Shown here piece by piece: positions 40,030-56,571 of a stretch of DNA of 64,000 nucleotides; position 1 is the stretch's first letter; each line of letters begins with the position of its first letter. The DNA lies in NCBI RefSeq assembly GCF_014075995.1, contig NZ_CP055153.1:4650001-4714000 (forward strand). The letters run 5' to 3'. This DNA is from Adhaeribacter radiodurans. GTDB lineage: Bacteria > Bacteroidota > Bacteroidia > Cytophagales > Hymenobacteraceae. Position numbers and translations under genes: made by a program. The notes under the pieces are model-generated. The model searched no databases. It had not been told where the DNA came from and saw nothing but the letters and a program-made list of their open reading frames with translations.

Positions 40030-40296
40030 ATGAAGCAACTTTTTCTCCTTTTTACCATTTCAGCTCAAAGGACAACTCCGCTTACTTCGATAGAAAACCA
40101 TTCTATTTCGATAAAACCAATTGTTAAAAAACAGCACGCCTCTACTAGCTACACCTGGGAAGAAGGAAGTGCGTTTACCTGCCAATATCTGGAGAGTAGC
40201 ACAGAACAACAGCCGTATTTGCATACGATTTCGGCGGTTAGTAAAACGGTGGCAGAGAATAGCTACGATCGTAGATTTTATAAGAACTCTAATTAA
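40030..40296 (+). CDS. Possible small exported protein, unrecognised
   Basis: 88 residues from an ATG, beginning MKQLFLLFTISAQ, a short signal-peptide-like stretch, followed by a polar region (TSYTWEEGSAFTCQYLESSTEQQPYLH). It ends 10 bp before the next small gene, which suggests a pair. No family was recognised and the composition gives no strong coding signal, so it may be spurious. Confidence 0.35.
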   Translation: MKQLFLLFTISAQRTTPLTSIENHSISIKPIVKKQHASTSYTWEEGSAFTCQYLESSTEQQPYLHTISAVSKTVAENSYDRRFYKNSN

Positions 40297-40306
40297 GGAA
40301 TTAAGG

Positions 40307-40552
40307 ATGCCTATTATTATTTCTCTTCCCCAGATTCCTTTAGTTGTTTCGGCTTTGCTGGTCTTATTCTTGATTGTCCGGCAAGTAATATCCAGTTGGC
40401 AAATTGTTCATTCTACTTTCCAGGAAGCGGGAAATCTGACTCAGGAACTTCGGCAAATTAATCGTAAATCTTCCCAGGAACTCCAGGAAATTAACTTGTC
40501 CTTGCACAATTTAAACGTTAAACCTATAATAGTAAATTTAGAATACGATTAA
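40307..40552 (+). CDS. Possible small single-span membrane protein with a coiled-coil tail
   Basis: 81 residues from the ATG at 40307, preceded by GGAATTAAGG, an acceptable ribosome-binding region. Residues 8-26 (PQIPLVVSALLVLFLIVRQVI) form one transmembrane helix. About 30-70 (IVHSTFQEAGNLTQELRQINRKSSQELQEINLSLHNL) has a heptad-like pattern that may form a coiled coil. I do not recognise the family. It follows the possible exported protein at 40030 and converges on the radical SAM gene. Confidence 0.5.
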   Translation: MPIIISLPQIPLVVSALLVLFLIVRQVISSWQIVHSTFQEAGNLTQELRQINRKSSQELQEINLSLHNLNVKPIIVNLEYD

Positions 40553-40655: not shown

Positions 40656-41600
40656 TTACTGGTGACAACTGGTGCAAACGCGATTTACTTGTTCTCCTTG
40701 ATAATGTTTTTCAAAGAACTCATCGCACCAGAGGCAAATATTCTTTAGTTCAGCTGTCCGAGCTTTGGCATGTGCTTCCGTAATACCGATACTTTCTCCC
40801 ATACCCAGCGGATTTCCCTCGTTTATTTTCTGCCAGATTTCGGATTTAGAAACCCGCTGCAAAACATCCGCTACTTTCTCGGTGCGGGCATCCCCTAGAG
40901 GAATTTTAGTACCGGGGCAGCAAGGATTAATTTTCCAAAGCTGAATGGATATTTCCTGCGGAATATCCGGGGCACCGGTTAAAAAGCCTTTGCCGCCGGA
41001 GAGAATAGCACAAAAATTATGATCCGGATCTTCTTTCCAAAGGCCTTTTTGGAAGGCCCGCCCGCGCGCCCAGTTTCCTCCCAGCCACATATCAATAGTC
41101 GCTCCCCAATAACCCCAACTAGCTTTATGTTGCGTGAGGTAGGTATCCTTGCTAACCAAGGGGTCGTGGTCATCACCATTTACTCCCCGACTGGCAAAAA
41201 TATCGGCCAGCTCCATCAAACGACCACCCGCGTGTTTATGATAACGGTCAATACTGGCTATATCGAAGCGGGTAACCCCTTTTTCCAGTAAAGTATCCAA
41301 AATTTGTTCATTAAGCAGATCTCCGTTGGTTTGCAGCATAATTTGGACACGGCCCTGATAACGCTCTTGCAGGCGATCTAAAATTTGGTAGAGCAGTTTT
41401 TTATCAGCCAGGGGTTCGCCTCCGGAAAGAATCAAGCGGTCCATGTGGTTCGGCAAATTTTGAATGATCGCCATGCATTCCGCTTCCGAAATGCGTTCGC
41501 CTCTAGGTCCGGAATTATTATAACAATGGTCACATTCGTCGTTACACAATTGGGTGAAAACCCAGTACACAGATTCGATATGGTTAAAATCTTTCGTCAT
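40656..41600 (-). CDS. Radical SAM protein with C-terminal Cys cluster, last gene of the transport cluster
   Basis: 314 residues from the ATG at 41600, chosen because it starts just 5 bp after the ATPase stop. The SAM-binding [4Fe-4S] motif is Cys19-x3-Cys23-x2-Cys26 (QLCNDECDHCYNNSG), followed by LILSGGEPLADKKLLY and the usual barrel. Towards the C-terminus, NPCCPGTK and then CLWCDEFF...VCTSCHQ could bind one or two auxiliary clusters in SPASM fashion. Such enzymes often modify peptides or build cofactors. It sits at the 3' end of the TonB receptor/ABC importer cluster, so it may act on the imported compound or its carrier. The substrate is unknown. Confidence 0.88.
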   Translation of the reverse strand: MTKDFNHIESVYWVFTQLCNDECDHCYNNSGPRGERISEAECMAIIQNLPNHMDRLILSGGEPLADKKLLYQILDRLQERYQGRVQIMLQTNGDLLNEQILDTLLEKGVTRFDIASIDRYHKHAGGRLMELADIFASRGVNGDDHDPLVSKDTYLTQHKASWGYWGATIDMWLGGNWARGRAFQKGLWKEDPDHNFCAILSGGKGFLTGAPDIPQEISIQLWKINPCCPGTKIPLGDARTEKVADVLQRVSKSEIWQKINEGNPLGMGESIGITEAHAKARTAELKNICLWCDEFFEKHYQGEQVNRVCTSCHQ

Positions 41601-41605
41601 GATTA

Positions 41606-42334
41606 CTAAATATTGTTTTGTTCCAGAGCCTGCCAAAAGGCTAGTTCCTCCCGAACACCCGTTGCCGGATCATCCATAAAAGAGGCTTTGGAAGCATACA
41701 TTTGAAACTTACCGGCCGCCATATACGCCCATCTATCACCAACCAGTAAAGCTTCTTTTACATCATGCGTTACAAACAAAGCCGTGATGTTAAATTTTTT
41801 AGCTAGTCGTAAAAACAAAGTTTGCATGGTAGCACGGGTCTGGGCGTCGAGGTTACCAAAGGGCTCATCCAACAACAAAACCCGGGGTAAAAATATAATG
41901 GCTCGTCCAAAAGAAACCCGTTGGCGCTGACCACCGGAAAGCTGATGCGGCATTTTCGGAGCGTGTTCCTGTAGTTCCAATTCCTCCAACATACGCGACA
42001 CCTTTTGCTGCACAGCAACTTCAGTTTCTTTACGAACACGCAAACCGTAGGCAAGGTTCTCAAAAACCGAGAGGTGCGGAAACAAAAGCGGTTCCTGAAA
42101 TAGGTACACCATTTCCCGGTTCTGAACGGGTACGGCGTCCATGTTTTGTTCGGCCCAACTTATGGTACCTGCTTCGGCCGGGAGCAAACCCGCCATAACT
42201 TTAAGCAAAGTGGTTTTGCCGCAACCGGAGCGTCCCAGTACCGCTAGAATTTGTCCTGGGGCTAGCTCCAGCGAAACCTGGTCCAACACCGGATGATTAG
42301 CATACGTTTTAAATAGATTGTTTACTTGCAGCAT
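41606..42334 (-). CDS. ABC importer ATP-binding protein (YnjD-like)
   Basis: 242 residues. Walker A is GRSGCGKTTLLK, the Q-loop FQEPLLFP, the signature motif LSGGQRQRVSFGRAI, Walker B RVLLLDEPFGNLD, and the H-loop FVTHD. All are intact. It powers import through the two permeases encoded just upstream. Its ATG overlaps the stop of the second permease (TAATG), so translation is coupled. The gene order (binding protein, permeases, ATPase) and the binding-protein type match E. coli ynjBCD. Confidence 0.93.
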   Translation of the reverse strand: MLQVNNLFKTYANHPVLDQVSLELAPGQILAVLGRSGCGKTTLLKVMAGLLPAEAGTISWAEQNMDAVPVQNREMVYLFQEPLLFPHLSVFENLAYGLRVRKETEVAVQQKVSRMLEELELQEHAPKMPHQLSGGQRQRVSFGRAIIFLPRVLLLDEPFGNLDAQTRATMQTLFLRLAKKFNITALFVTHDVKEALLVGDRWAYMAAGKFQMYASKASFMDDPATGVREELAFWQALEQNNI

Positions 42335-43095
42335 TACATTCCTTTAAAAACAAATTTTTTATTAAACCATAATAAAATGGCGGGTGGCACCATAATGAGC
42401 AAGGAAGCCAAAGCGGCATAAAAAATATTGGCTTCGTTCACGTATTTAAATACCAATATGGTAAGGGTTTTAATTTTACCTAAACCAATAAATTGGGTCA
42501 GACCATATTCAAACCAGGAAATCAGGAAAGTCTGGAAAAAGCACATGAGCAGCAGCGGTTTGGCCAATGGCAGCAGGATATGCCGTAAAGTATAGCCCGC
42601 TGAAGCGCCTAAGGTAAGAGATTGTTGTTCGAGTTGCAGCACCTGGTTGTTCCAGAAGCTTTGGAACAAAATAACTGCGTACGGAAAAGCCAGCATGAGC
42701 TGCCCTAATAATACGCCAATGACTTTGCCGCTCAAGTTAGTGAATAGAAAGAAGCGTTGTACCAGTATGGCCAGCACCACAGGCGCCAACACAAATGGCC
42801 AGTAAGCCAATAGCAACCAACGGTTTTTATGTTTGGCCCACGCAATTTCTTTACTAACCACAAAGCCCATGAGGGTTGATAGTAAGGCAACTCCCACACC
42901 CAATACCAGCGAGAGCAACAACCCAACCTGGAGTTCTCCTTGCCTAACCAGTAGTTGCTGCCAGTTATCCAGGGTAAAACGTTGCGGCAAAATATCCGGG
43001 TAAAACCATTTTTGACCCAGCGATAAGATTCCGAAGAACACGTAAGGCAGCAGGACAGCTGAAAGGAGAGTTGACAGCAATATTTTTCTAAACAT
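42334..43095 (-). CDS. ABC transporter permease, C-terminal half of a YnjC-type pair
   Basis: 253 residues with about six transmembrane helices. The EAA loop that docks on the ATPase reads LEQQSLTLGASAGYTLRHILLPLAKPLLL. In E. coli, YnjC is one ~510-residue protein with two permease halves; here the halves are separate genes overlapping by 8 bp. It overlaps the ATPase start by one base. An inner-membrane channel for an unknown substrate. Confidence 0.9.
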   Translation of the reverse strand: MFRKILLSTLLSAVLLPYVFFGILSLGQKWFYPDILPQRFTLDNWQQLLVRQGELQVGLLLSLVLGVGVALLSTLMGFVVSKEIAWAKHKNRWLLLAYWPFVLAPVVLAILVQRFFLFTNLSGKVIGVLLGQLMLAFPYAVILFQSFWNNQVLQLEQQSLTLGASAGYTLRHILLPLAKPLLLMCFFQTFLISWFEYGLTQFIGLGKIKTLTILVFKYVNEANIFYAALASLLIMVPPAILLWFNKKFVFKGM

Positions 43096-43966
43096 GGCGG
43101 CTCACATTTTTAAAAAATAGTAAAAGCAAGAGCAGCACCAAGCCAGTAAAAGCTACACTAATGGCATACCCCTGCGGAATATCGAGCAGGTTAAAACGCT
43201 GAAATTTTTGTACGGCCAACACGGCTACCATTTGGTGCTGCTGACTGCCGATGAGCAAGGGTATTTCGTAAGAGCCCAGAATAAAAATAAAATAAAGCAT
43301 TAGGTTTGGGGCGGCGGTTTTTAAAAGGATGGGGAACGCCACATGCCGGAGAAAGTAAAATTTTTCTGCTCCCAGGTTTTCGGAAACCGCTTTTAGTAAA
43401 TGGAGTTCCTGCTCCTGGTAAATAGCATGAAATAACAGCGTTAAAAAAGGCACTTCCATGCATACATGCGCCAGAATAATTCCAAAACCCCAGGAGTCAT
43501 GAACCAGGCTAGGGAAATTCTGTAAGTCTATTAACCATCCTGCTTGATAAACTATCCGGGACAGCAATCCGGATTTAGTAAGTAGTTCAAAGATTAAGAA
43601 ACCCATGATCATGGCCGGAATGGTTAAGGGCAGGAACAATAAATAGCTGAGTGCGCCCCGATGCAGACTTTTTTTAAAATATAAAGCTAAAAACAAGGCC
43701 AAAACAGTTGCCAAACTACTAGCTACCAATGCAATGTAAATACTGTAAGCCAAAGAATCCAACAAAGCACTGCTGCTCAATACCTGGTGCCAATGTTCAA
43801 GGGTAAAACCAGTAGACAGCACACCGGTTAAGCCGAAGCTATTGGCTAAGCCATAAACTAAACCTCCAGCAACGGGTAGCACGGCCAGCAACAAAAACAA
43901 GAAGCGCCAATACAAACCAGTGGTTTTCTTAGTTCTGCTCAATAACCTTAGTTCTGAAATCATCAT
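43088..43966 (-). CDS. ABC transporter permease, N-terminal half of a YnjC-type pair
   Basis: 292 residues, about six transmembrane helices. The EAA loop is LLKAVSENLGAEKFYFLRHVAFPILLKTAAPNL. The start at 43966 (MMISELRLLSRTKKTTG) overlaps the binding-protein gene by 38 bp, a long overlap; a TTG eight codons in (43942) is an alternative start with a shorter overlap. It should pair with the downstream permease as a heterodimer, where E. coli has a fused single chain. Confidence 0.9.
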   Translation of the reverse strand: MMISELRLLSRTKKTTGLYWRFLFLLLAVLPVAGGLVYGLANSFGLTGVLSTGFTLEHWHQVLSSSALLDSLAYSIYIALVASSLATVLALFLALYFKKSLHRGALSYLLFLPLTIPAMIMGFLIFELLTKSGLLSRIVYQAGWLIDLQNFPSLVHDSWGFGIILAHVCMEVPFLTLLFHAIYQEQELHLLKAVSENLGAEKFYFLRHVAFPILLKTAAPNLMLYFIFILGSYEIPLLIGSQQHQMVAVLAVQKFQRFNLLDIPQGYAISVAFTGLVLLLLLLFFKNVSRHV

Positions 43967-45155
43967 ACAAACGGATCATGTATTCGGGAGCCAATTCTTC
44001 GAAAGCCCGGTGTTGTATTTTGGAACGATCCGGGGCTTGCCGGCGGGCGGAGATATTTTTAAATTTTTGTTGCCATTCATCGGGTAGTTTGGAGAATGCG
44101 AGGATAGTACCATCGCCCCAAACGGCTGGACTGGCCTTCTGGTACTGCGCCTCCGGCGACTGCAGAAAGTTAATCACCACGAGCGCACCAGGTACATTAG
44201 CCGCTTTTTTCATAATACCCAGATAGTGGGAGTTTTGAATAGTGCCCGGCTCGGGAACGTAGGCCCGGGATTCCGGCGGAAAAACACCTTGTAAAATTTT
44301 GTTGTCTACCTCAGCATCATTATTACTAAAAGTAAAATTTACTTCTCCGTTGGCGTAAAGCTGGTGCAGTTGCGCGAGCGTAGCAGGAAAAGTCTGCCCT
44401 TGTTTCCAGAAATACGGTTTGAGGCGGTTCAGCTTTTGCCATAGCTGTTGGCTGTACTTAGTATACTTGGCGGCACTAAATGATCCGGCTAGTTCTTCTT
44501 TACCGGCTAAGGCTATCATCCAGGATTTTAATAACGTCATGCCGGTAAACTCATTGGGAATAGTAAAGGTGCCGGGATTATTTTGAATGTAAGTTTCCAA
44601 AGCGTTAAACGAAGCGGGCGGCTGCGTTACTTTACCGGAATGGTAAATAAAAGCTAGTTGTACATTTCCCCAAGGCGCTTCCATGCCCTTAACAGGCTGT
44701 TGAAAATCGCGGGCAATAAATGAACTTTGCCAGTTCACCAATTGGTTGTTGGGTAACCGTTCGGTAAACGGACCATAAAGTGCATCCAGCTGACGCAGTT
44801 GGTAAAAGGTTTCGCCATTAATCCAGATCACGTCGATCTCACTCGTTTTTTTTCCGGTTTCTTTTTCGGCTAAGGCAAAACCCACAATGTCTTTTCCTTG
44901 GCCAGAAGAAATGTCGAGCGTGATGTTGTACAGAGCCCGTAATTTTGGCTTAACATAATCCTCCATGTACTTATTAATGAGCGGATCCCCTTGCCACATC
45001 ATCATTTGTACGGTAGTACCCTTAGCAGCTTGCTCTAGGTTGGGCCAACTTTCCTCCGCAATATTCAATTGTTTTTGCTGCCTGTTTTCGCTGTTGCAAC
45101 TGCTCAAAAATAAGGAAAGAAATAAGGCAGTAGTAGTAAAGTATTTAAATTTCAT
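43929..45155 (-). CDS. YnjB-like ABC transporter substrate-binding lipoprotein
   Basis: 408 residues from the ATG at 45155; a TTG three codons earlier is also in frame. The lipobox is LFLSLFLSSC (Cys20). QAAKGTTVQMMMWQGDPLINKYMEDYVKPKL and SEIDVIWINGETFYQLRQLDALYGPFTERLPN are close to conserved blocks of the E. coli YnjB family (for example WINGENF and GPF..xLPN). It should deliver a ligand from the periplasm to the two permeases. YnjB ligands are not established, to my knowledge. Lipid anchoring and the TonB receptor gene just upstream suggest a continuous import route. Confidence 0.9.
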   Translation of the reverse strand: MKFKYFTTTALFLSLFLSSCNSENRQQKQLNIAEESWPNLEQAAKGTTVQMMMWQGDPLINKYMEDYVKPKLRALYNITLDISSGQGKDIVGFALAEKETGKKTSEIDVIWINGETFYQLRQLDALYGPFTERLPNNQLVNWQSSFIARDFQQPVKGMEAPWGNVQLAFIYHSGKVTQPPASFNALETYIQNNPGTFTIPNEFTGMTLLKSWMIALAGKEELAGSFSAAKYTKYSQQLWQKLNRLKPYFWKQGQTFPATLAQLHQLYANGEVNFTFSNNDAEVDNKILQGVFPPESRAYVPEPGTIQNSHYLGIMKKAANVPGALVVINFLQSPEAQYQKASPAVWGDGTILAFSKLPDEWQQKFKNISARRQAPDRSKIQHRAFEELAPEYMIRLYDDFRTKVIEQN

Positions 45156-45212
45156 GCGCTTCAAGTAAGGTATTCGTTACCTTTCCCTCCAAAAGAGAAA
45201 AATAACCGAATA

Positions 45213-48200
45213 TTAAAAAATGTACCGGAGACCAAATTGTACCTGGCGGGGAGGAGCCGCATTCCGGCGCACCAGCAAACCACTGCTCGCAGGTCCTACC
45301 TGAATCTGGTTGCTTTGCGTGGCATTATTGCTGTAGCCGCTCAGGTTTTCGGCGTTGAACAAATTAAACACATCCGCCCGAATTTCCAGTCCGTTTTTGC
45401 CAGTGGTACCAAAAGGCACAAAATATTGCACGCTGGCATCGAAAGTGTTGGACCATGGCAACCGATCAGAATTGCGTTCTTCGCCTGGGTAACGATCGGA
45501 GTTACCAACGTAGGCATCCCCAAAGGCGGAGCCATCCCCGTTTAAATCATTTGTAAATGTTGGGTTGCCGGCAGCATTCATAAGAGAATTGCCCCGGCTA
45601 TCTACCACTCTGTACTGGGTAGCATCCGGAATACGATTAATAGGCTGGCCACTTTGCAGTAAGGCCGCCAAGGTTAGTGTTAAGTTGGAAATTGGATAGT
45701 AATTATAAATAGCATTAATCACATGGCGCCGGTCGTTAATGCTCGGTCCCCATTCCGCCTGAAAGTTGTTGGCATCCATGGCCCGGAAATTAATATCCTC
45801 GGTATTGTTTTCCAGGAATGACAAAGTGTAGATTAAACGGTAGGAGAACTTATCATCTGCTTTATCTTTCTGCAAGTTAAAACTGGCGGCGTAGTAGTTG
45901 CTTTTACCTTCTGATTCCGTCATTACCAAACTGCGCGCCACACCTTCTACCCGGTTGCCATTAATTAATGCATAGTTACCGTAGATCGGAAGAGCCCGGG
46001 TAGAATCGGCCCAGGCACTGCTGCGGGCAATACCGTTTTGCTGGCTGCGGTTGTAGTCCCAGGCTGCCGGGGCGTTCAAATTAACAGTCCGGAACAGGCT
46101 ACGTCCCTGATTATATACCAGATCCACGTAAAAGAGCTTATTAGGTGCTACCTGCAATTGGTAACCTAAGGAAAATTGCCGTGTAAAGGGGTTATCATAA
46201 CCATTCGGATTTAAGATTCGCCGTTCGTTGCTGAACAGATTACGTTGATCGGAAAAATTTTCAGCCGGTGGACCTTGCAGGTAAGCAAAAGGTAAACCGG
46301 CATTATTGCTTTGCCCTACCGTAAGATTACCGTTAAAGGTAACCCGGTCTACGTCCGTATCGGCGGGTAACAGTCCTTGCGCTACATAGTAGGCAATCTG
46401 TTGTTTAAAATCAGGTGAATTGTTGTTTTGTTGCAAGGCATCACTGTAGATAGTGTACAGGATTTTATCGTAGAATAAGCCAAAACCACCCCGAATGGTG
46501 CTGTTGGGCGTAAGTTGGTAATTAAAACTCAAGCGGGGAGCCAGGTTATTAAAGTCCCCTTTGGCGTTACCGCCCCGGGAAAGATTATCATAGTCGTAGC
46601 GAAGGCCCAGGTTCAGATTCAGCCGCTCGGTTGCCTGCACCTGGTCTTCCAGGTAAGCACTAAAGATATTCTGCCGTTTACCGAAAGAAGCGGGGCGTAA
46701 TTCAACGGAGTAGTTGGTTACCAAAGCATCCGCGGGTATATCCGTCACGCTTAATGCAGAGCCCCGGTTCGCCGTCCGCAAATTATCTAATTGGGGTTGG
46801 GTGAGTTGCACCCGGTAGCTGCCGTTTGGATTACCCCCGCCATAAAGCGCTTGATCCGTGCTCAATATTTCGGCTCCGGCTTTAAAACTATGGCTGCCCA
46901 CAGACCAGGATGCTTTCTGCTGAGCTTGTAATGTATGCTGGATACTCTCAAAAGCATAACCCGGATGCCCCAGCACGGCCACTGTTTCGCCGGTTGGTCC
47001 GGTTATGGTTACATCTGGACTGGTAGGATTATCTGGTGCGGCATAATCCCAACGAAAACGGGCGTACTGCACATTCGTAGTTAAAGTAAGATTGCCGGAG
47101 GTATACACATTCGTGCTGGCTAAATTCAGCGTATTACGCACCTGGTCGCTCGCCGAAGATGGAAAATTCAACCCACCTGTTAAACCACCGGCCTGGCGAC
47201 CAATGCCCACAATACCCGTATTTACGCGGAACGTGGAGTGAAAACGGTCGTTCCAGTAATGATCTAATTTACCGGAAACATAATTGAAGTAATTTTTACC
47301 CCGGATGGTTTCATTCACACCTAAAGCCGGGCTGCTCAAAATATTATCTTTTAAATCGGTGGTGTGCTCATAATTGAGGTAATAAAAAGTTTTTCCTTTT
47401 ACAATAGCGCCACCTACACCAAAGCCCCCCTGATACCGCTGAAAACCATCTTTCACTTGATTTCCCGAAAGGTCGCGCTGCGCGTATGGCGAGGAAGCAT
47501 CCAGAAAGCCAGGCCGGGTTAGGAAAAAGGCCTCGCCTTGTAGTTCGTTGCTGCCCGATTTAGATGTTACGTTGATGATGCCATTGCCCGTATTTCCAAA
47601 TTCCGCTGAGTAGTTGTTGGTAAGCACCGATACGTTTTGAACGAACCCAATTGGAACACTAAAGCGGGAGCCACCCAAAAATTGCTCGTTATTATCCAGC
47701 CCGTCAATCAAATAATTATTAAAAAGGGGATTAGCCCCGTTAATACTCACATTGGGCGCTTCCGGGAAAAAACCCGTGGCTTGCGTAACATTGGGCAACC
47801 GAAATAGCATCCGGGAAAGATCCCGGCCTTCTACCGGCAACTCGCGAATTTCGGCAATGCGCATTTCCGAAGATACCTCGGCATTGTACCGGTTAATGCG
47901 GGTAGTATTATCCGGATACACCGTAACACCCGCTAAAACCCGTTCTTGCTTTAATGGGAGTACTAGGGTTACGGTGCGGTTAAAGTTAGAGCGCAGACTT
48001 ACTGGTTCGGAAGAAACAGCACTATACGTCTCGTTTTCGGTAAAAAGTATAATATAGGTACCGGCGGTGCTGAGGCCCGAGAAGGTAACAGAGCCTTTGC
48101 TGTTGGTGCTTTTGGTTGCGCTGAAGCTAATAGCCTCGCTGGTTATGGTTAAGGATACCCCCGGTACGGGTTCCAGTTTAGGATTTAGGACAGTAACTTC

Positions 48201-48269
48201 AATAGCGCCCTGCGCCCAAGCAGCGGCCATGGGTATAAAATACCCGAACAAGAGTAAAAGTTTTCTCAC
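45213..48269 (-). CDS. TonB-dependent receptor, Oar-like
   Basis: 1018 residues from a GTG start at 48269, which gives a clean signal peptide (MRKLLLLFGYFIPMAAAWAQG); the frame extends 32 codons upstream without a good start. A carboxypeptidase-regulatory domain (about 22-110, GVSLTITSEAISFSATKSTNSKGSVTFSGL) precedes the plug (IRELPVEGRDLSRMLFRLPNVTQ ... FNNYLIDGLDNNEQFLGG) and an Oar-type barrel ending PPRQVQFGLRYIF. It is predicted to import a bulky ligand through the outer membrane with TonB energy. Its gene lies between a DUF2064 gene 43 bp upstream and the YnjB-like gene 57 bp downstream, so it is probably the outer-membrane gate of this importer. Confidence 0.92.
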   Translation of the reverse strand: MRKLLLLFGYFIPMAAAWAQGAIEVTVLNPKLEPVPGVSLTITSEAISFSATKSTNSKGSVTFSGLSTAGTYIILFTENETYSAVSSEPVSLRSNFNRTVTLVLPLKQERVLAGVTVYPDNTTRINRYNAEVSSEMRIAEIRELPVEGRDLSRMLFRLPNVTQATGFFPEAPNVSINGANPLFNNYLIDGLDNNEQFLGGSRFSVPIGFVQNVSVLTNNYSAEFGNTGNGIINVTSKSGSNELQGEAFFLTRPGFLDASSPYAQRDLSGNQVKDGFQRYQGGFGVGGAIVKGKTFYYLNYEHTTDLKDNILSSPALGVNETIRGKNYFNYVSGKLDHYWNDRFHSTFRVNTGIVGIGRQAGGLTGGLNFPSSASDQVRNTLNLASTNVYTSGNLTLTTNVQYARFRWDYAAPDNPTSPDVTITGPTGETVAVLGHPGYAFESIQHTLQAQQKASWSVGSHSFKAGAEILSTDQALYGGGNPNGSYRVQLTQPQLDNLRTANRGSALSVTDIPADALVTNYSVELRPASFGKRQNIFSAYLEDQVQATERLNLNLGLRYDYDNLSRGGNAKGDFNNLAPRLSFNYQLTPNSTIRGGFGLFYDKILYTIYSDALQQNNNSPDFKQQIAYYVAQGLLPADTDVDRVTFNGNLTVGQSNNAGLPFAYLQGPPAENFSDQRNLFSNERRILNPNGYDNPFTRQFSLGYQLQVAPNKLFYVDLVYNQGRSLFRTVNLNAPAAWDYNRSQQNGIARSSAWADSTRALPIYGNYALINGNRVEGVARSLVMTESEGKSNYYAASFNLQKDKADDKFSYRLIYTLSFLENNTEDINFRAMDANNFQAEWGPSINDRRHVINAIYNYYPISNLTLTLAALLQSGQPINRIPDATQYRVVDSRGNSLMNAAGNPTFTNDLNGDGSAFGDAYVGNSDRYPGEERNSDRLPWSNTFDASVQYFVPFGTTGKNGLEIRADVFNLFNAENLSGYSNNATQSNQIQVGPASSGLLVRRNAAPPRQVQFGLRYIF

Positions 48270-48312
48270 GTTGATAGAATAAATTAGTTGAACAAAGGAA
48301 TAAAGCCAGAAG

Positions 48313-49002
48313 CTACATTCCCCTGGGTGGCGCCCGTAAGCCTGGGGTTGATATTCGGGCGGCAACTAACAACGGAGTAAAACTTACAGCAGTTGCTTTG
48401 CATAATTGAAGCAACGACCGCAAAATTATTAAAAAACGACTTGTGGTACAGGTGTTACTAATAGCAAGAATTGCAGCGGTATTGTCGGCATCGGCCAGGA
48501 TGGGCTCTAGTATTGTTACCCGGAATAAGGTGGTTTGCCGGCATAACTCTTGAAATACCTGAGCGGTTTGCCAAGGTATGGTAGTAAAATTAAGTTTAAA
48601 TTGGGTTGGCTGCCGCAGACCAATGAGGTAGACTCCGCCATCCGCCGCCTCACCAAAAACAAAATCCTGGTGCTGCAATTTAGCGGCCGCTAGGCGTAGA
48701 AGTCCGGGTGTTAGGCCGGGCGAATCGTTGCCTAAACAAATAACTTGCTCGTAACCAGCATTAACTACTTGCTGAATAGCATGCTGCAGACGTTCGCCAA
48801 AGGTTTCTCCTTTTTGTTTGGTTGAATCTATAACGATTAAGGGGAGCCCGGCCTGCTGTACGAGAAGCTTTGTTCGATTAATAAGCTGGCGGATGATGGC
48901 TTTGTTTCGGCGGGTACTAGGGGTAAATTTTTTTGCCCGTGCTTCTTCGGTAGAAGTGCGGGTAAAAAGCAAAACAGCCGTATGCGCCCTGGCAGCTTTC
49001 AA
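48313..49002 (-). CDS. DUF2064/TIGR04282-like glycosyltransferase-fold protein
   Basis: 229 residues from a TTG at 49002; no in-frame ATG or GTG precedes it before a stop. AVLLFTRTSTEEARAKKFTPS, KGETFGERLQHAIQQVVNAGYEQVICLGNDSPGLTPGLL and VFGEAADGGVYLIGLRQP are the hallmark blocks of DUF2064, a GT-A nucleotidyl/glycosyltransferase-like fold. Family relatives are associated with arsenosugar and other small-molecule pathways, but the reaction is unproven. The last ~45 residues after ADADNTAAILAIS look unlike the family and rather basic. It is the first gene of the seven-gene cluster. Confidence 0.82.
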   Translation of the reverse strand: MKAARAHTAVLLFTRTSTEEARAKKFTPSTRRNKAIIRQLINRTKLLVQQAGLPLIVIDSTKQKGETFGERLQHAIQQVVNAGYEQVICLGNDSPGLTPGLLRLAAAKLQHQDFVFGEAADGGVYLIGLRQPTQFKLNFTTIPWQTAQVFQELCRQTTLFRVTILEPILADADNTAAILAISNTCTTSRFLIILRSLLQLCKATAVSFTPLLVAARISTPGLRAPPRGM

Positions 49003-49558
49003 TAGATGTTTTTTAATTTTTTATTATATACCCCAAGTTTAACGTTTTGTTTGCAATTAATAATAAACAGAGCGTTTTAGTTAAATCGTAAAAATCATTA
49101 AGGATTCATTTAAATAGATTTAAAAGGTTTCATCTCGAATAACAATAAAAAAGAAATGGCGAAAAACCGGATAGCATTAAGTCTTTCTTGCTTTACCGGT
49201 ATCTTTAAAAGGCAGCTCAAGAAAGAGTTGCTTTTAAATTAAAAGCTGGGTATGGATATAATTAACATTCGACAAATTAGGTAAACTTCTTCCTGGATAA
49301 TCATTTTTTAAGTTTTCCGATTCTGCTTATTGGTTTAATTACCTGATTTTTAGATTAGATATAAACTTTATCGCTCTCCTGTTTTCGCTCCAATTAGCTT
49401 CACAATTATAATTATTTAATCACCTAAGAAGATACTAAATGAAAGGGCAACTCAAAATACCTGTAAAGTTTTTTAACTTGCCTTCAAAAAGAAGGGGGCA
49501 AATACGAAAAGCCCAATAACTAATTTATTAGTACCTGTTATTTGGGTTATATTAAAGT
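49003..49558. other. Divergent intergenic region, only a weak hairpin seen
   Basis: About 555 bp between the divergent DUF2064 and AgcS-type genes; both promoters must lie here. An imperfect inverted repeat (AAGTCTTTCTTG near 49180 with CAAGAAAGAGTT near 49218) could form a loose hairpin. No gene or clear operator was found. Confidence 0.4.
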
Positions 49559-51007
49559 ATGGAAAAATTAATTACTGACATTAATAATATTGTTTGGAGT
49601 AACGCTTTAATTCTACTTTGTCTGGGTACCGGCATTTATTTCTCCGTTATCACCCGGTTTTTGCAGGTGCGTTATTTACGCGACATGATTCGTTTGCTTT
49701 TCAATAATCAATCCTCGCAGAAGGGCGTTAGTTCTTTTCAAGCATTTTCCATTGCCATTGCTGGCCGGGTGGGTACTGGTAATATTGCCGGCGTAGCTAC
49801 CGCTATTGCCATGGGTGGACCGGGAGCTATTTTTTGGATGTGGGTTATTGCTTTTTTAGGGAGTGCCTCCGCTTTTATAGAAGCAACCCTGGGCCAGATC
49901 TATAAAGAGGTTAAAGACGGCCAATACCGGGGGGGACCGGCTTTTTATATCGAAAAAGGTTTGGGGATGAAGTGGTACGCGGTGGTTTTTGCTTTGGCCA
50001 CCATCGTAAGCATGGTTTTCTTGTTACCTGGGGTGCAAAGCAACAGCATTGCTCTGGGAATAAGAAATGCTTTTGAGGTTCCTCCGGCTATTACAGGCGG
50101 GGCAATAACGCTGGTTCTTGCCCTGATTATTTTTGGCGGCGTAAAAAGAATTGGGAAAGTAGCCGAATGGATTGTTCCGTTTATGGCGGGCGCTTATATC
50201 TTAATGGCTATTATTATCATCGGGATGAACATCACCCAAATACCTGCCGTTTTAATTTTGATTATACGCTCGGCTTTTGATCTGGAACCGGCTTTTGCCG
50301 GAGTATTTGGCATGGCCATCTCGTGGGGAGTAAAAAGGGGTATTTATTCAAATGAAGCTGGCCAGGGAACGGCTCCGCACGCGGCGGCAGCCGCCGAAGT
50401 AAGTCACCCGGTAGAACAAGGGCTGGTTCAGGCTTTTTCGGTGTACGTCGATACGTTGTTTGTCTGTACGGCTACAGCTTTTATGATCTTGTTTACTGGG
50501 CAATATAACGTGCTTAATCCGGCCGGTGGTTTCCTGGTAGAGCAGGTTCCTGGTATACCCATTGGGTCGGAATATACCCAGCAAGCCGTTAATACCCACT
50601 TTCCAGCTTTGGGGGGCGGGTTTGTGGCTATAGCTTTGTTATTGTTTGCTTTTACTACCATTATGGCCTATTACTATATTGCCGAAACAAACTTAAGTTA
50701 CTTAATGGCGAAAGGCACTCCTAAAGTACTACTGGGGTTATTGCGGGCATTTATTCTGGGGGCTACCTTTTTTGGTTCGATCAAAACCGCTGAATCGGCT
50801 TGGGCTTTAGGTGATATTGGAGTAGGCGTTATGGCCTGGCTAAACATCATTGCCATTCTTTTGTTGCAGAAACCAGCATTACGGGCACTCAAAGATTACC
50901 AAACCCAGAAAAATGCTGGTTTAAATCCGGAGTTTGATTCCCGGCAATTAAAAATTAAAAATGCCGAAGCGTGGAAAAAGCCAGAGCAACAGCCCGTAGC
51001 GAGGTAG
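49559..51007 (+). CDS. AgcS-type sodium:alanine/glycine symporter
   Basis: 482 residues with about ten transmembrane helices. FSIAIAGRVGTGNIAGVATAIAMGGPGAIFWMWVIAFLGSASAFIEATLGQIYK is the diagnostic conserved block of the alanine/glycine:cation symporter family, and ISWGVKRGIYSNEAGQGTAPHAAAAAEVSHPVEQGL is the second. It takes up alanine, glycine or a similar small amino acid with sodium (or H+). It stands alone, with its own upstream region. Confidence 0.95.
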   Translation: MEKLITDINNIVWSNALILLCLGTGIYFSVITRFLQVRYLRDMIRLLFNNQSSQKGVSSFQAFSIAIAGRVGTGNIAGVATAIAMGGPGAIFWMWVIAFLGSASAFIEATLGQIYKEVKDGQYRGGPAFYIEKGLGMKWYAVVFALATIVSMVFLLPGVQSNSIALGIRNAFEVPPAITGGAITLVLALIIFGGVKRIGKVAEWIVPFMAGAYILMAIIIIGMNITQIPAVLILIIRSAFDLEPAFAGVFGMAISWGVKRGIYSNEAGQGTAPHAAAAAEVSHPVEQGLVQAFSVYVDTLFVCTATAFMILFTGQYNVLNPAGGFLVEQVPGIPIGSEYTQQAVNTHFPALGGGFVAIALLLFAFTTIMAYYYIAETNLSYLMAKGTPKVLLGLLRAFILGATFFGSIKTAESAWALGDIGVGVMAWLNIIAILLLQKPALRALKDYQTQKNAGLNPEFDSRQLKIKNAEAWKKPEQQPVAR

Positions 51008-53058: not shown

Positions 53059-56000
53059 ATGAAAAGATACTTTTACCGTTTAAAATCCTTAGCTATTTTT
53101 CTTTTTCTAGTAGCCTTAACCGGATTAGTTTCCTTCGCTCTCTACCAGGAACCACCGCGCGTACTGGTTTTTAGTAAAACTATTGCTTTCCGGCATTCTT
53201 CTATTGGGGCAGGCAAAGCTGCTTTTATGAAAATGGGTCGGGAACACAACTTTGTAGTAGATACCACCGAGGACGCGAGTAAATTTAACGAAGAAAATTT
53301 AAAACGCTACCAAGCAGTAGTTTTCCTTAGCACAACCGGCGACGTTTTAAACGCTGAGCAACAAAACAATTTTGAGCGCTACATTCAGGCGGGGGGCGGT
53401 TATCTGGGTGTACACGCTGCCGCCGATACCGAGTACGATTGGCCCTGGTACGTGAAATTAGCCGGTGCTTGGTTCGATAATCATCCAATGCCGGATAACG
53501 TGCAGAAAGGTACTTTTGTGGTAGTAGATAAAACTAATCCGGCAACGAGTTTTTTACCCGAACACTGGGAACGCGAAGACGAATTCTACGCCTATAAAAA
53601 TATCAGCCCGGATATAAAAGTATTGCTTAAAATCGATGAGAAAACCTATCGGGGCGGTACCAACGGCGACAACCACCCGATGGCATGGTTTCAGGAATTT
53701 GACGGCGGACGAGCTTTTTATACTGCTGGTGGCCATACCGATGCTTCTTTTTCCGAACCTTTGTTTTTGCAGCACTTATTTGCGGGCCTTAACTACGCCA
53801 TGGGCGGCGAAAAACTAAAAACCTTGAACTACACGCAGGTCCGAACTCCCAAAATGCCGGAAGAAAACCGTTTTACTAAAGTAGTACTCGACGAAAAGTT
53901 AGCCGAACCCATGGAGCTTACGGTTTTAAAAGATGGCCGGGTATTATTTATTGAACGGGGGGGTAAAGTAAAAATGTATTCTCCGGGTACTAATCAAACT
54001 AAAGTAATTGCTACTATTCCGGTAAGTACCAAGTACACCGATAAAGAAGGTAAAGTAACGGAAGGCGAAGATGGCTTACTGGGCTTAACCCAAGACCCGC
54101 AATTTGAACAGAACCATTGGCTTTATCTGTATTACTCCGCGGCTGGTTCGGAAGCTAAAAATATTTTAACCCGTTACGAACTTCGGGGCGATGAGCTAAT
54201 AATGGATTCCAAAAAAGTGCTGCTGGAAGTGCCTACCCAACGGGAACAATGCTGCCATACCGGCGGCTCCCTGGCTTTTGACGCCCAAGGTAATTTGTAC
54301 ATATCTACCGGCGATAATACCAGCCCCCGGGCTACCAGCTACGCTCCTATTGACGAACGCCCGGAACGCAGCCCTTGGGATGCGCAAAAATCTTCGGCCA
54401 ATACCAACGATTTGCGGGGTAAAATTTTGCGTATTCACCCGGAATCAGATGGCAGTTATACTATTCCGGCCGGCAATTTATTCCCGAAAGGTACGCCAAA
54501 AACCCGTCCAGAAATTTACACCATGGGCCATCGGAACCCGTACCGCATTTCCGTGGATCGCAAAACCGGTTACGTATATTGGGGCGAAATTGGTCCCGAT
54601 GCCAACGATCCTTCCGACCAAGGTCCGGAAGGCAACGACGAAGTAGGGCAAGCGCGCCAAGCGGGTAACTTTGGCTGGCCGTATTTTGTAGGCAATAACA
54701 AAGCTTACAGCAAGGTTAATTTTACTAATAACCAGGCCGGAGCTAAATTTGAAGCCGCCAAGCCCCTGAATACTTCGCCCAACAACACGGGTTTAAATCA
54801 ACTCCCTCCCGCACAGAGTGCTTTTATCTGGTACCCCTACGGTGCCTCCAAAGAGTTTCCATTAGTGGGTTCCGGTGGCCGTAGTGCCATGGCCGGGCCC
54901 GTTTATTATCAGGATTTATTCCCGCAAGCCAAACGCGCTTTTCCGGCTTATTACAACGGAAAACTATTTATCTACGAATGGATGCGCGGCTGGATAATGG
55001 CCGTAACTTTGGATAAAGCCGGAAATTACGCGTCGATGGAGCGTTTTATGCCGAATTATAAATTTAGTAACCCCGTTGATTTAGAATTTGGCCCGGAAGG
55101 CGATATGTACATGCTGGAATATGGTTCCGGCTGGTTTCAGGCCAACGACGATGCGCGATTAGTCCGGATAGAATACAACGGTGGCAACCGCAAACCAGCC
55201 GTAGAAATAGCCGCCAACAAACTGGCCGGAGCTTTACCTTTAGCTGTAAACTTGTCATCGAAAGGTACCCTGGATTTTGACCAGGATGCCTTGCAATACA
55301 ATTGGAAAATTACTTCTGCTGCCGGTACTTATAAAACCTTTACCCAGGCAAACCCAACCATAAACTTTACTAAGCCGGGAGTTTATAAAGCAACTCTTAC
55401 CGTAACCGACGCCAAAGGGGAAAAGAGCAGCAAATCTTTAGAAATAAAAGCCGGTAACAACCCGCCGGTATTAGCCTTTGATATTACCCAGGGCAACAAG
55501 AGTTTCTTCATTCCGGGTAAACCGTTGGCCTACCAGGTAAAAGTTACCGATAAAGAAGACGGCAGCTTAGCAACTGGCAAAATTAATCCGGCGCAGGTGG
55601 CGGTTACCATTGATTACCTGCCGGAAGGATTTGACCAGGCGGCAATTGCTCCCGGACACCGAGATGCCGAAGGTTCCGCGCAATTTGCTACCGGGCTCCG
55701 GTTAATGGAAAGCAGCGATTGCAAAGCCTGCCATAGTATTGATAAAAAATCTATAGGGCCAGCTTATAAGCAGGTAGCCTTAAAATATCAAAACGATAAT
55801 GGTGCCACCGAGCGATTGGCGAAAAAAGTAATTTCGGGTGGTAAAGGAGTTTGGGGCGAAGTTCCCATGAGTGCCCATCCGCAGTTAGCGTTGAACGATG
55901 CTACGGAGATGGTAAAATATGTATTGAGTTTAGCTACTGAGAAAACCGCTACTAAATCTTTACCAGTTAAGGGTAACTATACACCAGTTTTACCCACTAC

Positions 56001-56571
56001 TGATAAAGGAAAAGGCGTTTATGTCTTACGCGCTTCTTACCGCGACCAGGGGGCGAATGGCATACCAGGTATTTCCGCGGAACAAACCCGGGTACTACGC
56101 AACCCGAATGTATTAGCCAGTTCTGCTAAATTCACGCACAGTATTCAGAAGTTAAAATTAGCCGATCCACCGCTTGATTTAGTAATTGTGTCGGGTTCTG
56201 GTGCGCACATTGGCTTTGAGCAATTAGACTTATCGGGTATTCAGGAGCTTACTTTTGTGGTAATGGCTCCAAAAGAACAAGTAAATGCGGCCGGTGGCAT
56301 TATCGAGGTGCATCAGGATTTGCCAACGGGAAAGTTACTGGGTACGTCCAAAGAAATTGTACCGACTACTACTCCGGTTATGTCTACTCCGCCTCAATTT
56401 ATAACTGTTCCGCTAACGACTACTACCAATTTGCAAGATTTGTATTTTGTCTTTAAAAACAGCAAAGCTCCTGCCGGCCAATCACTGTTTGTGGTGACGA
56501 ATGTTATTTTCAAAGCCAAGGAAAACGAAACGAAAGCTCCCGTAAATGCGGTAGGTCAAACGAAGAATTAA
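53059..56571 (+). CDS. Multidomain ThuA - PQQ-type sugar dehydrogenase - PKD - cytochrome c protein
   Basis: 1170 residues, with an N-terminal signal or anchor helix (about 12-30). In order: a ThuA-like glutamine-amidotransferase fold (about 33-250, PRVLVFSKTIAFRHSSI, GGYLGVHAAADTEYDW); a six-bladed propeller of the soluble PQQ-glucose-dehydrogenase type (about 275-700, AEPMELTVLKDGRVLFIERGG, GEDGLLGLTQDPQF, MGHRNPYRISVD); a PKD domain (about 715-800); a c-type cytochrome with Cys888, Cys891 and His892 (SDCKACHS); and a beta-rich carbohydrate-binding-like C-terminus (about 975-1150). It probably oxidises a sugar outside the cytoplasm and passes electrons to its own haem. It is followed by a sugar isomerase gene and preceded by the Nudix regulator. 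Confidence 0.92.
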   Translation: MKRYFYRLKSLAIFLFLVALTGLVSFALYQEPPRVLVFSKTIAFRHSSIGAGKAAFMKMGREHNFVVDTTEDASKFNEENLKRYQAVVFLSTTGDVLNAEQQNNFERYIQAGGGYLGVHAAADTEYDWPWYVKLAGAWFDNHPMPDNVQKGTFVVVDKTNPATSFLPEHWEREDEFYAYKNISPDIKVLLKIDEKTYRGGTNGDNHPMAWFQEFDGGRAFYTAGGHTDASFSEPLFLQHLFAGLNYAMGGEKLKTLNYTQVRTPKMPEENRFTKVVLDEKLAEPMELTVLKDGRVLFIERGGKVKMYSPGTNQTKVIATIPVSTKYTDKEGKVTEGEDGLLGLTQDPQFEQNHWLYLYYSAAGSEAKNILTRYELRGDELIMDSKKVLLEVPTQREQCCHTGGSLAFDAQGNLYISTGDNTSPRATSYAPIDERPERSPWDAQKSSANTNDLRGKILRIHPESDGSYTIPAGNLFPKGTPKTRPEIYTMGHRNPYRISVDRKTGYVYWGEIGPDANDPSDQGPEGNDEVGQARQAGNFGWPYFVGNNKAYSKVNFTNNQAGAKFEAAKPLNTSPNNTGLNQLPPAQSAFIWYPYGASKEFPLVGSGGRSAMAGPVYYQDLFPQAKRAFPAYYNGKLFIYEWMRGWIMAVTLDKAGNYASMERFMPNYKFSNPVDLEFGPEGDMYMLEYGSGWFQANDDARLVRIEYNGGNRKPAVEIAANKLAGALPLAVNLSSKGTLDFDQDALQYNWKITSAAGTYKTFTQANPTINFTKPGVYKATLTVTDAKGEKSSKSLEIKAGNNPPVLAFDITQGNKSFFIPGKPLAYQVKVTDKEDGSLATGKINPAQVAVTIDYLPEGFDQAAIAPGHRDAEGSAQFATGLRLMESSDCKACHSIDKKSIGPAYKQVALKYQNDNGATERLAKKVISGGKGVWGEVPMSAHPQLALNDATEMVKYVLSLATEKTATKSLPVKGNYTPVLPTTDKGKGVYVLRASYRDQGANGIPGISAEQTRVLRNPNVLASSAKFTHSIQKLKLADPPLDLVIVSGSGAHIGFEQLDLSGIQELTFVVMAPKEQVNAAGGIIEVHQDLPTGKLLGTSKEIVPTTTPVMSTPPQFITVPLTTTTNLQDLYFVFKNSKAPAGQSLFVVTNVIFKAKENETKAPVNAVGQTKN

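Follow-up and report, generated by a model that had tools for sequence, protein, structure and literature searches.

Seven genes at positions 40656-49002 of a stretch of the Adhaeribacter radiodurans genome may form an operon that scavenges a ribose-containing (riboside-type) compound across the cell envelope, combining its uptake and processing, with an arsenosugar as the leading candidate ligand. The window, i.e., the whole 64,000-nucleotide stretch analyzed, corresponds to C2:4650001-4714000 in a genome of 6.9 Mb (G000). We put the probability of this reading at roughly 0.47. In this scheme, a TonB-dependent receptor would take the ligand across the outer membrane, the lipoprotein YnjB would carry it, and a pump made of two permeases and an ATPase would move it into the cytosol, where a radical S-adenosylmethionine (rSAM) enzyme and a DUF2064 transferase would process it. 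Relatives that lack this rSAM would release (5-substituted) ribose with a nucleoside-phosphorylase-like or nucleoside-hydrolase enzyme and phosphorylate it with a methylthioribose (MTR)-kinase-like enzyme. Gene content, gene order, recurrent neighbors and folds are what the analysis observed; the direction of transport, the ligand class and the rSAM and DUF2064 reactions are inferred from them. A ribose moiety is suggested by neighboring enzymes in sister clusters. The choice of an arsenosugar is speculative and draws on five loci and on chemical fit, as arsenosugars, which are produced by algae, are 5-deoxy-5-dimethylarsinoyl-ribosides.

The original prediction described seven co-directional genes with overlaps or gaps under 60 bp. 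Indeed, all seven open reading frames (ORFs) lie on the minus strand, every junction in the ORF table overlaps or is shorter than 60 bp, and family matches bore out the proposed gene identities. From first to last, the operon encodes a DUF2064 protein (48313-49002; PF09837, 84.5 bits), an Oar-like TonB-dependent outer-membrane receptor (45213-48365; PF25183, 189 bits; PF00593, 40 bits; PF07715, 32 bits), a YnjB-type substrate-binding lipoprotein with lipobox Cys23 (43929-45164), YnjC-like permease subunits 1 (43088-43966; PF00528, 38.7 bits) and 2 (42334-43095; PF00528, 34.6 bits), a YnjD-like ABC ATPase (41606-42334; PF00005, 120.6 bits) and the rSAM enzyme (40656-41636; PF04055, 52.2 bits). 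Outer-membrane, periplasmic, inner-membrane and enzyme parts are thus found in one co-directional unit. The receptor has both the plug and the beta-barrel, with its three families above cut-off and a CarboxypepD_reg match (29 bits) under cut-off. YnjB scored 364.2 bits with NF008633, against a curated cut-off of 203, and its Cys23 was invariant in 34 aligned sequences. The permeases, of 292 and 253 aa, are separate genes instead of the single two-domain YnjC of Escherichia coli YnjBCD, and the ATPase reached no equivalog cut-off among the NCBIfam matches listed (best 25 of 188). At 93.8 bits with TIGR04282, against a cut-off of 134, the DUF2064 protein scores too low for that family; it matched PDB 3cgx ("putative nucleotide-diphospho-sugar transferase") with an E value of 1.2e-15 and would be a divergent TIGR04282 relative, probably sugar/nucleotidyl-transferase-like by family. 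A true TIGR04282 member is encoded elsewhere in the same genome (C2:2903116). There, a rhodanese-like ORF appears, on our reading of the sequence, to overlap the TIGR04282 gene (C2:2902605-2903697, or L125 9606-10698), with nuo-like genes downstream.

We then scanned a genome collection with the rSAM protein. Of 93 relatives, 80 were kept as loci (L025-L104), and their gene content was determined by six-frame search with family profiles built from those loci; ORF calling was mechanical, and some genes missed by ORF clustering were recovered by the profile search. All seven genes, in the order DUF2064-TonB-YnjB-C1-C2-D-rSAM on one strand, were present in 48 of the 80 loci, so that the arrangement is not due to chance. 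YnjB, both permeases, the ATPase and rSAM occurred together in 63 loci. Among the remaining 15 of these 63, L049 has all seven genes and fails the order test from open-frame counting only. In L030, L038, L047, L054, L067 and L097, the stretch begins inside the cluster or no more than about 200 bases from the receptor, and in L044 the 800 bases upstream of ynjB hold no receptor. DUF2064 is missing from L066, L068 and L073, DUF2064 and the receptor from L082 and L086, and the Oar-like receptor from L102. Finally, Sulfidibacter corallicola, represented by its complete chromosome (L085), has the receptor, YnjB, both permeases, the ATPase and rSAM in divergent halves, without DUF2064.

Named Bacteroidota isolates among the 80 loci belong to Pontibacter, Hymenobacter, Fulvivirga, Aquimarina, Phaeodactylibacter and Pedobacter, and those outside this phylum to Acanthopleuribacter and Sulfidibacter, which we take to be Acidobacteriota. 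Further rSAM matches came from metagenome-assembled genomes (MAGs) labeled Ignavibacteria, Kapaibacterium, Chlorobiota, Chthoniobacterales, Gammaproteobacteria and Armatimonadetes, labels that may be wrong. The closest named rSAM relatives were those of Pontibacter (85-87%); within the genus, two of eight listed genomes, that of the window and G003, have rSAM. A viral collection searched with the rSAM protein gave one stretch fitting a pattern and no relative. The neighborhood survey called for by the original prediction found the combination in many other genomes, so that the prediction is not overturned by the absence elsewhere that it had named as a refutation, and the cluster is a real, widespread and modular system with importer parts and two enzymes.

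Two accessory families, c6 and c7, were detected in 26 and 23 of the 80 loci by clustering and in 30 and 30 by profile. Their genes are adjacent and encode about 215 aa each (e.g., L036 7466-8816); they are located between permease 2 and the ATPase in Hymenobacter and after rSAM elsewhere. None of the three pairs tested had a Pfam match reaching cut-off, and a search for c7 in the window's genome, run without a positive control, found nothing. In L088-L091, L093 and L094, mostly Saprospiria-type contigs, rSAM directly follows a gene that looks, by motif, GH32 fructan hydrolase-like, and no YnjBCD was found within the fetched stretch. LytTR response regulator and His_kinase genes, possibly a regulator, were observed beside the cluster in two lineages (L042 3099-4980 and L156 232-2081).

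The last gene encodes a member of the radical SAM superfamily. In addition to its PF04055 match, the CxxxCxxC core (Cys31, Cys35 and Cys38) is at least 90% conserved, and Cys54, Cys209, Cys239, Cys240, Cys301 and Cys304 are invariant among 47 aligned sequences. No equivalog cut-off was reached among the NCBIfam matches listed (best 25 of 52), and solved structures related by sequence were remote only. The structure model (pLDDT 87.4, pTM 0.87) was nearest in fold to EpeE (Z 18.5, 3.7 Å, 261 aligned residues), followed by BtrN (Z 16.2, 3.2 Å, 217 residues), a viperin-like protein (Z 14.6, 3.5 Å, 213 residues) and SpeY (Z 12.0, 4.0 Å, 212 residues). The C-terminal cysteines are invariant and the fold matches EpeE and BtrN, yet there was no SPASM Pfam match. 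The protein appears to form a family of its own, whose C-terminal cysteines are of the auxiliary-cluster type. EpeE is a peptide epimerase. Since the SpeY structure is titled dehydrogenase and BtrN is also a dehydrogenase, a reasonable guess from the modeled fold is that the enzyme might oxidize or epimerize a sugar carbon.

In a further step, loci were selected by YnjB. NF008633 is rare, being above cut-off in 14/241 genomes of the order and 21/395 of the phylum. All 20 other genomes of the phylum above this cut-off were sampled (L147-L166), as were all 13 others of the order together with G003 (L167-L180). In the phylum sample, rSAM was present in 3/20 loci (L151, L152 and L155), and genes resembling methylthioadenosine phosphorylase (MTAP), nucleoside hydrolase and/or MTR kinase were present in 12/20 (L149, L150, L153, L154, L157, L158 and L160-L165). 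Such ribosyl genes lay elsewhere in two further genomes, on another contig for L156 (G294) and about 13 kb off for L159 (G558), and L166 is a 4.9-kb contig. The other two loci, L147 and L148, have a distant rSAM, with a SPASM match shown for L147; we observed that this gene lies directly upstream and that their YnjB proteins (536-537 bits) are nearer to the E. coli-based model. DUF2064 was found in 10/20, an Oar-like receptor in 7/20 and a SusC/SusD-type receptor in 4/20 loci. SusC/SusD replaces the Oar-like receptor in L162-L165, as judged by sequence similarity, and is also present in L096 by Pfam. In the order sample, rSAM was found in 7/13 genomes (L167-L171, L175 and L176), and the ribosyl-gene queries gave zero matches in these 13.

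The ribosyl enzymes belong to known superfamilies. The MTAP-like protein of L150 scored 79.5 bits with PF01048 and 105 bits with TIGR01694 (below cut-off), the L150 and L163 kinases matched PF01636 and scored 89 and 120 bits with TIGR01767 (below cut-off), and the L162 hydrolase scored 109 bits with PF01156. The closest solved relatives were MTA phosphorylases for the phosphorylase, ribonucleoside hydrolases for the hydrolase and, for the kinase of L163 only, the uncharacterized 2pyw and the methylthioribose kinase 2olc. The L163-type kinase retains HGD and DPEF. Altogether, the kinases fall into two types that are about 25% identical, 4/10 having the DPEF of MTR kinase and 6/10 having DWE. 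The phosphorylase retains RH..PH.L.P..I.YRA, with GHKYS in 8/8 sequences where the aligned MTAP has TDYD. Because the TDYD aspartates of MTAP presumably bind adenine, the aglycone of the phosphorylase substrate may not be adenine.

To place the kinase, the phylum was searched with a kinase alignment (A3) at an E value of 1e-20, with up to five candidates scored per genome. The family was found in 29/395 genomes, namely, 13/21 with YnjB versus 16/374 without (p 1.3e-11, a value inflated because nine of these 13 genomes had contributed rows to the profile). Without these nine genomes, the counts were 4/12 versus 16/374 (p 0.002), and by genus, counted by hand, 9/13 versus 10/158; genomes were treated as independent in all Fisher tests. 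Among the 21 YnjB genomes, the kinase was present in 0/4 with rSAM versus 13/17 without (p 0.012). Salvage of 5'-deoxyadenosine, the rSAM by-product, was considered as a reason for the kinase and rejected, since rSAM and the kinase never co-occurred in these 21 genomes. Moreover, six of 16 YnjB-less kinase loci (L194, L195, L198, L200, L201 and L203) combine DUF2064, the same receptor family, an MTAP-like enzyme or hydrolase and the kinase; the receptor and ribosyl enzymes are able to travel without YnjBCD. These six loci and the SusC/SusD swap in L162-L165 are consistent with a dedicated ligand.

Arsenosugar or arsenite-methyltransferase-family genes were found in 5/80 rSAM loci. Aquimarina aggregata (L069) has the gene order ArsS-(seven genes)-rhodanese-TIGR04282-PNP-AsSugarArsM, with ArsS at 436 bits (cut-off 300), rhodanese NF045521 at 211 (145), TIGR04282 at 216 (134) and AsSugarArsM at 576 (400), and ArsS ends 3 bp ahead of the DUF2064 ORF. 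ArsS is also encoded downstream in L072 (422 bits; labeled "Chlorobiota") and in L074 (labeled "Armatimonadetes"); these count as about one event because the two proteins are 94% identical, and a MAG phylum label may be wrong. L062 has an arsenite-methyltransferase-family gene between c7 and rSAM (190 bits, below the cut-off of 263). In L081, two such genes follow c7 (221 bits, below, and 368 bits, above cut-off), together with an ArsR-family regulator and a MIP-family channel. PNP in L077 and L029, with a TIGR04282 fragment in L077, is not arsenic-specific. In the 1.38 Mb of loci, about 0.07 ArsS genes were expected, taking the window's order as background with an estimated mean genome of 4.9 Mb, and three were seen (p 6e-5), or two if L072 and L074 are one (p 0.002). 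ArsS, ArsM, PNP and TIGR04282 were sought in the flanks with single sequences, so the counts are lower bounds. TIGR04282 occurred in 21/21 YnjB genomes versus 212/374 others (p 1.2e-5), a few of which could be the operon gene itself because match places were listed for part of the genomes. The window's genome encodes two arsenite methyltransferases above cut-off (365 and 364 bits), both outside the window, at C1:23908-24717 on a small second contig and at C2:446730-447539.

Several observations weigh against an arsenosugar, or any riboside, as the ligand. ArsS (TIGR04167) did not exceed 300 bits anywhere in the window's genome (best E value, 1.2e-7), which also gave no kinase match at 1e-20. 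ArsS enrichment at the genome level was not clear, with 3/14 YnjB genomes versus 59/241 overall in the order and 15 of 47 rSAM-locus genomes searched (of 80), and queries with ArsS, ArsM, PNP and rhodanese gave zero matches in the 34 loci L147-L180. TIGR04282 is common in any case (233/395 genomes). L172-L174 and L177-L179 have neither rSAM nor ribosyl genes. The DWE kinases (6/10 aligned) appear less like MTR kinase because DWE replaces DPE, and the kinase counts favor YnjB genomes because the profile is mostly YnjB-linked and at most five candidates per genome were scored. rSAM and ribosyl enzymes occurred together only in L096 and L097 among the loci examined; since these enzymes are mostly in rSAM-less clusters, we infer the ligand class of the window's operon by carrying it over from them. 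The modeled YnjB (pLDDT 92.6) has a solute-binding-protein fold that does not reveal the ligand: 1125 chains matched at an E value of 0.001, the best 50 being solute-binding proteins with diverse ligands, and no relative among solved structures was found by sequence at 0.01.

The narrower proposal of a dedicated bacterial system for arsenosugar uptake and breakdown or recycling, in which a TonB receptor or SusCD acts with YnjBCD and DUF2064 and the arsenoriboside would be opened by rSAM or by a ribosyl-cleaving enzyme with an MTR-type kinase, is rather unlikely as it stands. The cluster might instead scavenge an ordinary or modified nucleoside or a 5'-deoxynucleoside, such as methylthioadenosine, 5'-deoxyadenosine or a rarer riboside, with the arsenic genes as chance neighbors. 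We consider this unlikely too. In its favor, the strongest recurrent extra neighbors are the ribosyl-cleaving and MTR-kinase-like enzymes, and ADP-ribosylglycohydrolase-family genes adjoin the kinase in L189 and in L206, where the kinase is also in line with rhodanese, TIGR04282, PNP, DUF547 and GT2 genes. Arsenic-related genes, with their five loci and no clear ArsS enrichment, would fit chance as well. However, TDYD of the aligned MTAP is not found in the phosphorylase, common nucleosides seldom need TonB, and ArsS in the fetched flanks of 3/80 loci (two if L072 and L074 are one) exceeds the expected number.

Import of a metallophore, cofactor precursor or modified peptide, which rSAM would modify, had been the suggestion of the original prediction and now looks improbable. 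The recurrent extra neighbors comprise ribosyl-cleaving enzymes and a sugar-kinase family, as well as arsenic-related genes in 5/80 loci, and no metallophore, cofactor-synthesis or peptide-precursor gene was prominent among the neighbors searched against families. What speaks for such ligands is that TonB receptors commonly serve them, that the peptide epimerase EpeE was the best fold match of rSAM, that ZnuA-type and ABC-3 genes lie near the L161 cluster and that the Pseudoalteromonas receptor of L186 fits a siderophore-receptor model, below cut-off. In addition, a genetic-interaction study grouped E. coli ynjABCDEFI with the Suf Fe-S assembly genes (PMC3930520). Arsenicals might also be handled other than by riboside import, through uptake of methylated arsenicals or provision of building blocks for arsenosugar or arsenolipid synthesis. 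Arsenosugar genes surround the cluster in L069 and ArsM and ArsR genes lie beside it in L081, and the window's genome has two ArsM copies; the arsenic queries matched nothing near most loci, and we regard this possibility as very improbable. Scavenging of a riboside-type compound, arsenosugar or other, is the reading that we prefer.

Within the operon, YnjB and permease 1 overlap by 38 bp, the two permeases by 8 bp, and permease 2 and the ATPase by 1 bp, and 48 bp separate the receptor from YnjB. With the ORFs as listed from TTG starts, the receptor and DUF2064 share 53 bp, and rSAM and the ATPase share 31 bp. Both listed starts are probably too far upstream: better starts are likely a GTG at 48269 (MRKLLLLFG) for the receptor, leaving a 43-bp gap to DUF2064, and an ATG at 41600 (MTKDFNHIES) for rSAM, leaving a 5-bp gap to the ATPase. 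Upstream, the intergenic region 49003-49558 is the presumed place of the operon promoter and is common to a divergent sodium:alanine symporter gene (49559-51007, plus strand); downstream lies a convergent ORF (40121-40552, plus strand). Promoter-like matches (19 versus 14.8 ± 4.9 in shuffled sequence) and terminator-like matches (11 versus 12.9 ± 3.9) were both at shuffle level. Pattern scans of this sort are unsuited to Bacteroidota promoters; with this limit, the scan identified no operon promoter in 49003-49558 and no sign of an internal break. Elsewhere in the window, 53059-56571 encodes a 1170-aa protein that reads as a ThuA-like start followed by a sugar-dehydrogenase-like part.

YnjBCD was also examined more widely, in eight of the 92 plasmid records that encode a YnjB relative. 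Its neighbors include a CDP-alcohol phosphatidyltransferase gene in 6/8 and TVP38/TMEM64, FAD oxidoreductase and carboxymuconolactone decarboxylase genes in 4/8 each. An arsenosugar-type peroxidase beside plasmid ynjBCD was considered and dropped, since the carboxymuconolactone decarboxylases of L181-L184 matched other families. A second association of a receptor with YnjBCD occurs on the Pseudoalteromonas plasmid (L186), where a separate TonB receptor, from another family (TIGR01783, below cut-off), is encoded upstream of ynjB.

Literature listings on YnjBCD, DUF2064, ArsS and arsenosugar uptake, degradation and biosynthesis brought out no paper on the seven-gene cluster. YnjBCD appears in the excerpts available as an unannotated, putative or uncharacterized transporter with no substrate stated (PMC3930520, PMC2731931, PMC9207381), and a 2025 review states, mainly in a mammalian-cell context, that how arsenosugars and other small organoarsenicals are taken up is largely unknown (PMC12608789). 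The comparative data supply a testable ligand class for YnjBCD and a set of interchangeable parts that spans genera and at least two phyla. If the ligand is an arsenosugar, the operon would provide gene candidates for bacterial arsenosugar uptake, a bacterial step in arsenosugar turnover.

Compared with known systems, the operon resembles E. coli YnjBCD (NF008633/PRK11622) in having YnjB above cut-off and the same lipoprotein-permease-ATPase order. Unlike it, the window's operon splits the permease into two genes, as do the Deinococcus and Metabacillus plasmid copies, whereas the Klebsiella and E. coli plasmid copies (L183 and L184) have one gene, and adds a TonB receptor, DUF2064 and rSAM. 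Enterobacterial copies instead adjoin genes for carboxymuconolactone decarboxylase, TVP38/TMEM64, CDP-alcohol phosphatidyltransferase and either sulfurtransferase or FAD oxidoreductase. Likeness to SusCD-type uptake in Bacteroidota is seen in L162-L165 and L096, where SusC/SusD stands in place of the Oar-like receptor, but the window's receptor has no SusD partner and is accompanied by an ABC pump. The rSAM-less clusters share enzyme superfamilies with methylthioadenosine salvage (MTAP, TIGR01694; MTR kinase, TIGR01767), but the four proteins tested scored 96-105 and 89-120 of about 275 bits, below the equivalog cut-offs, the base-site motif is altered, and the window's operon lacks these enzymes. 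With the arsenosugar biosynthesis set (ArsS, TIGR04167; ArsM, NF038099; TIGR04282; PNP; rhodanese, NF045521), the operon differs in that its genome has no ArsS above cut-off, its DUF2064 protein is below the TIGR04282 cut-off and its rSAM is not ArsS; the two sets have the DUF2064 family in common and are physically merged in A. aggregata.

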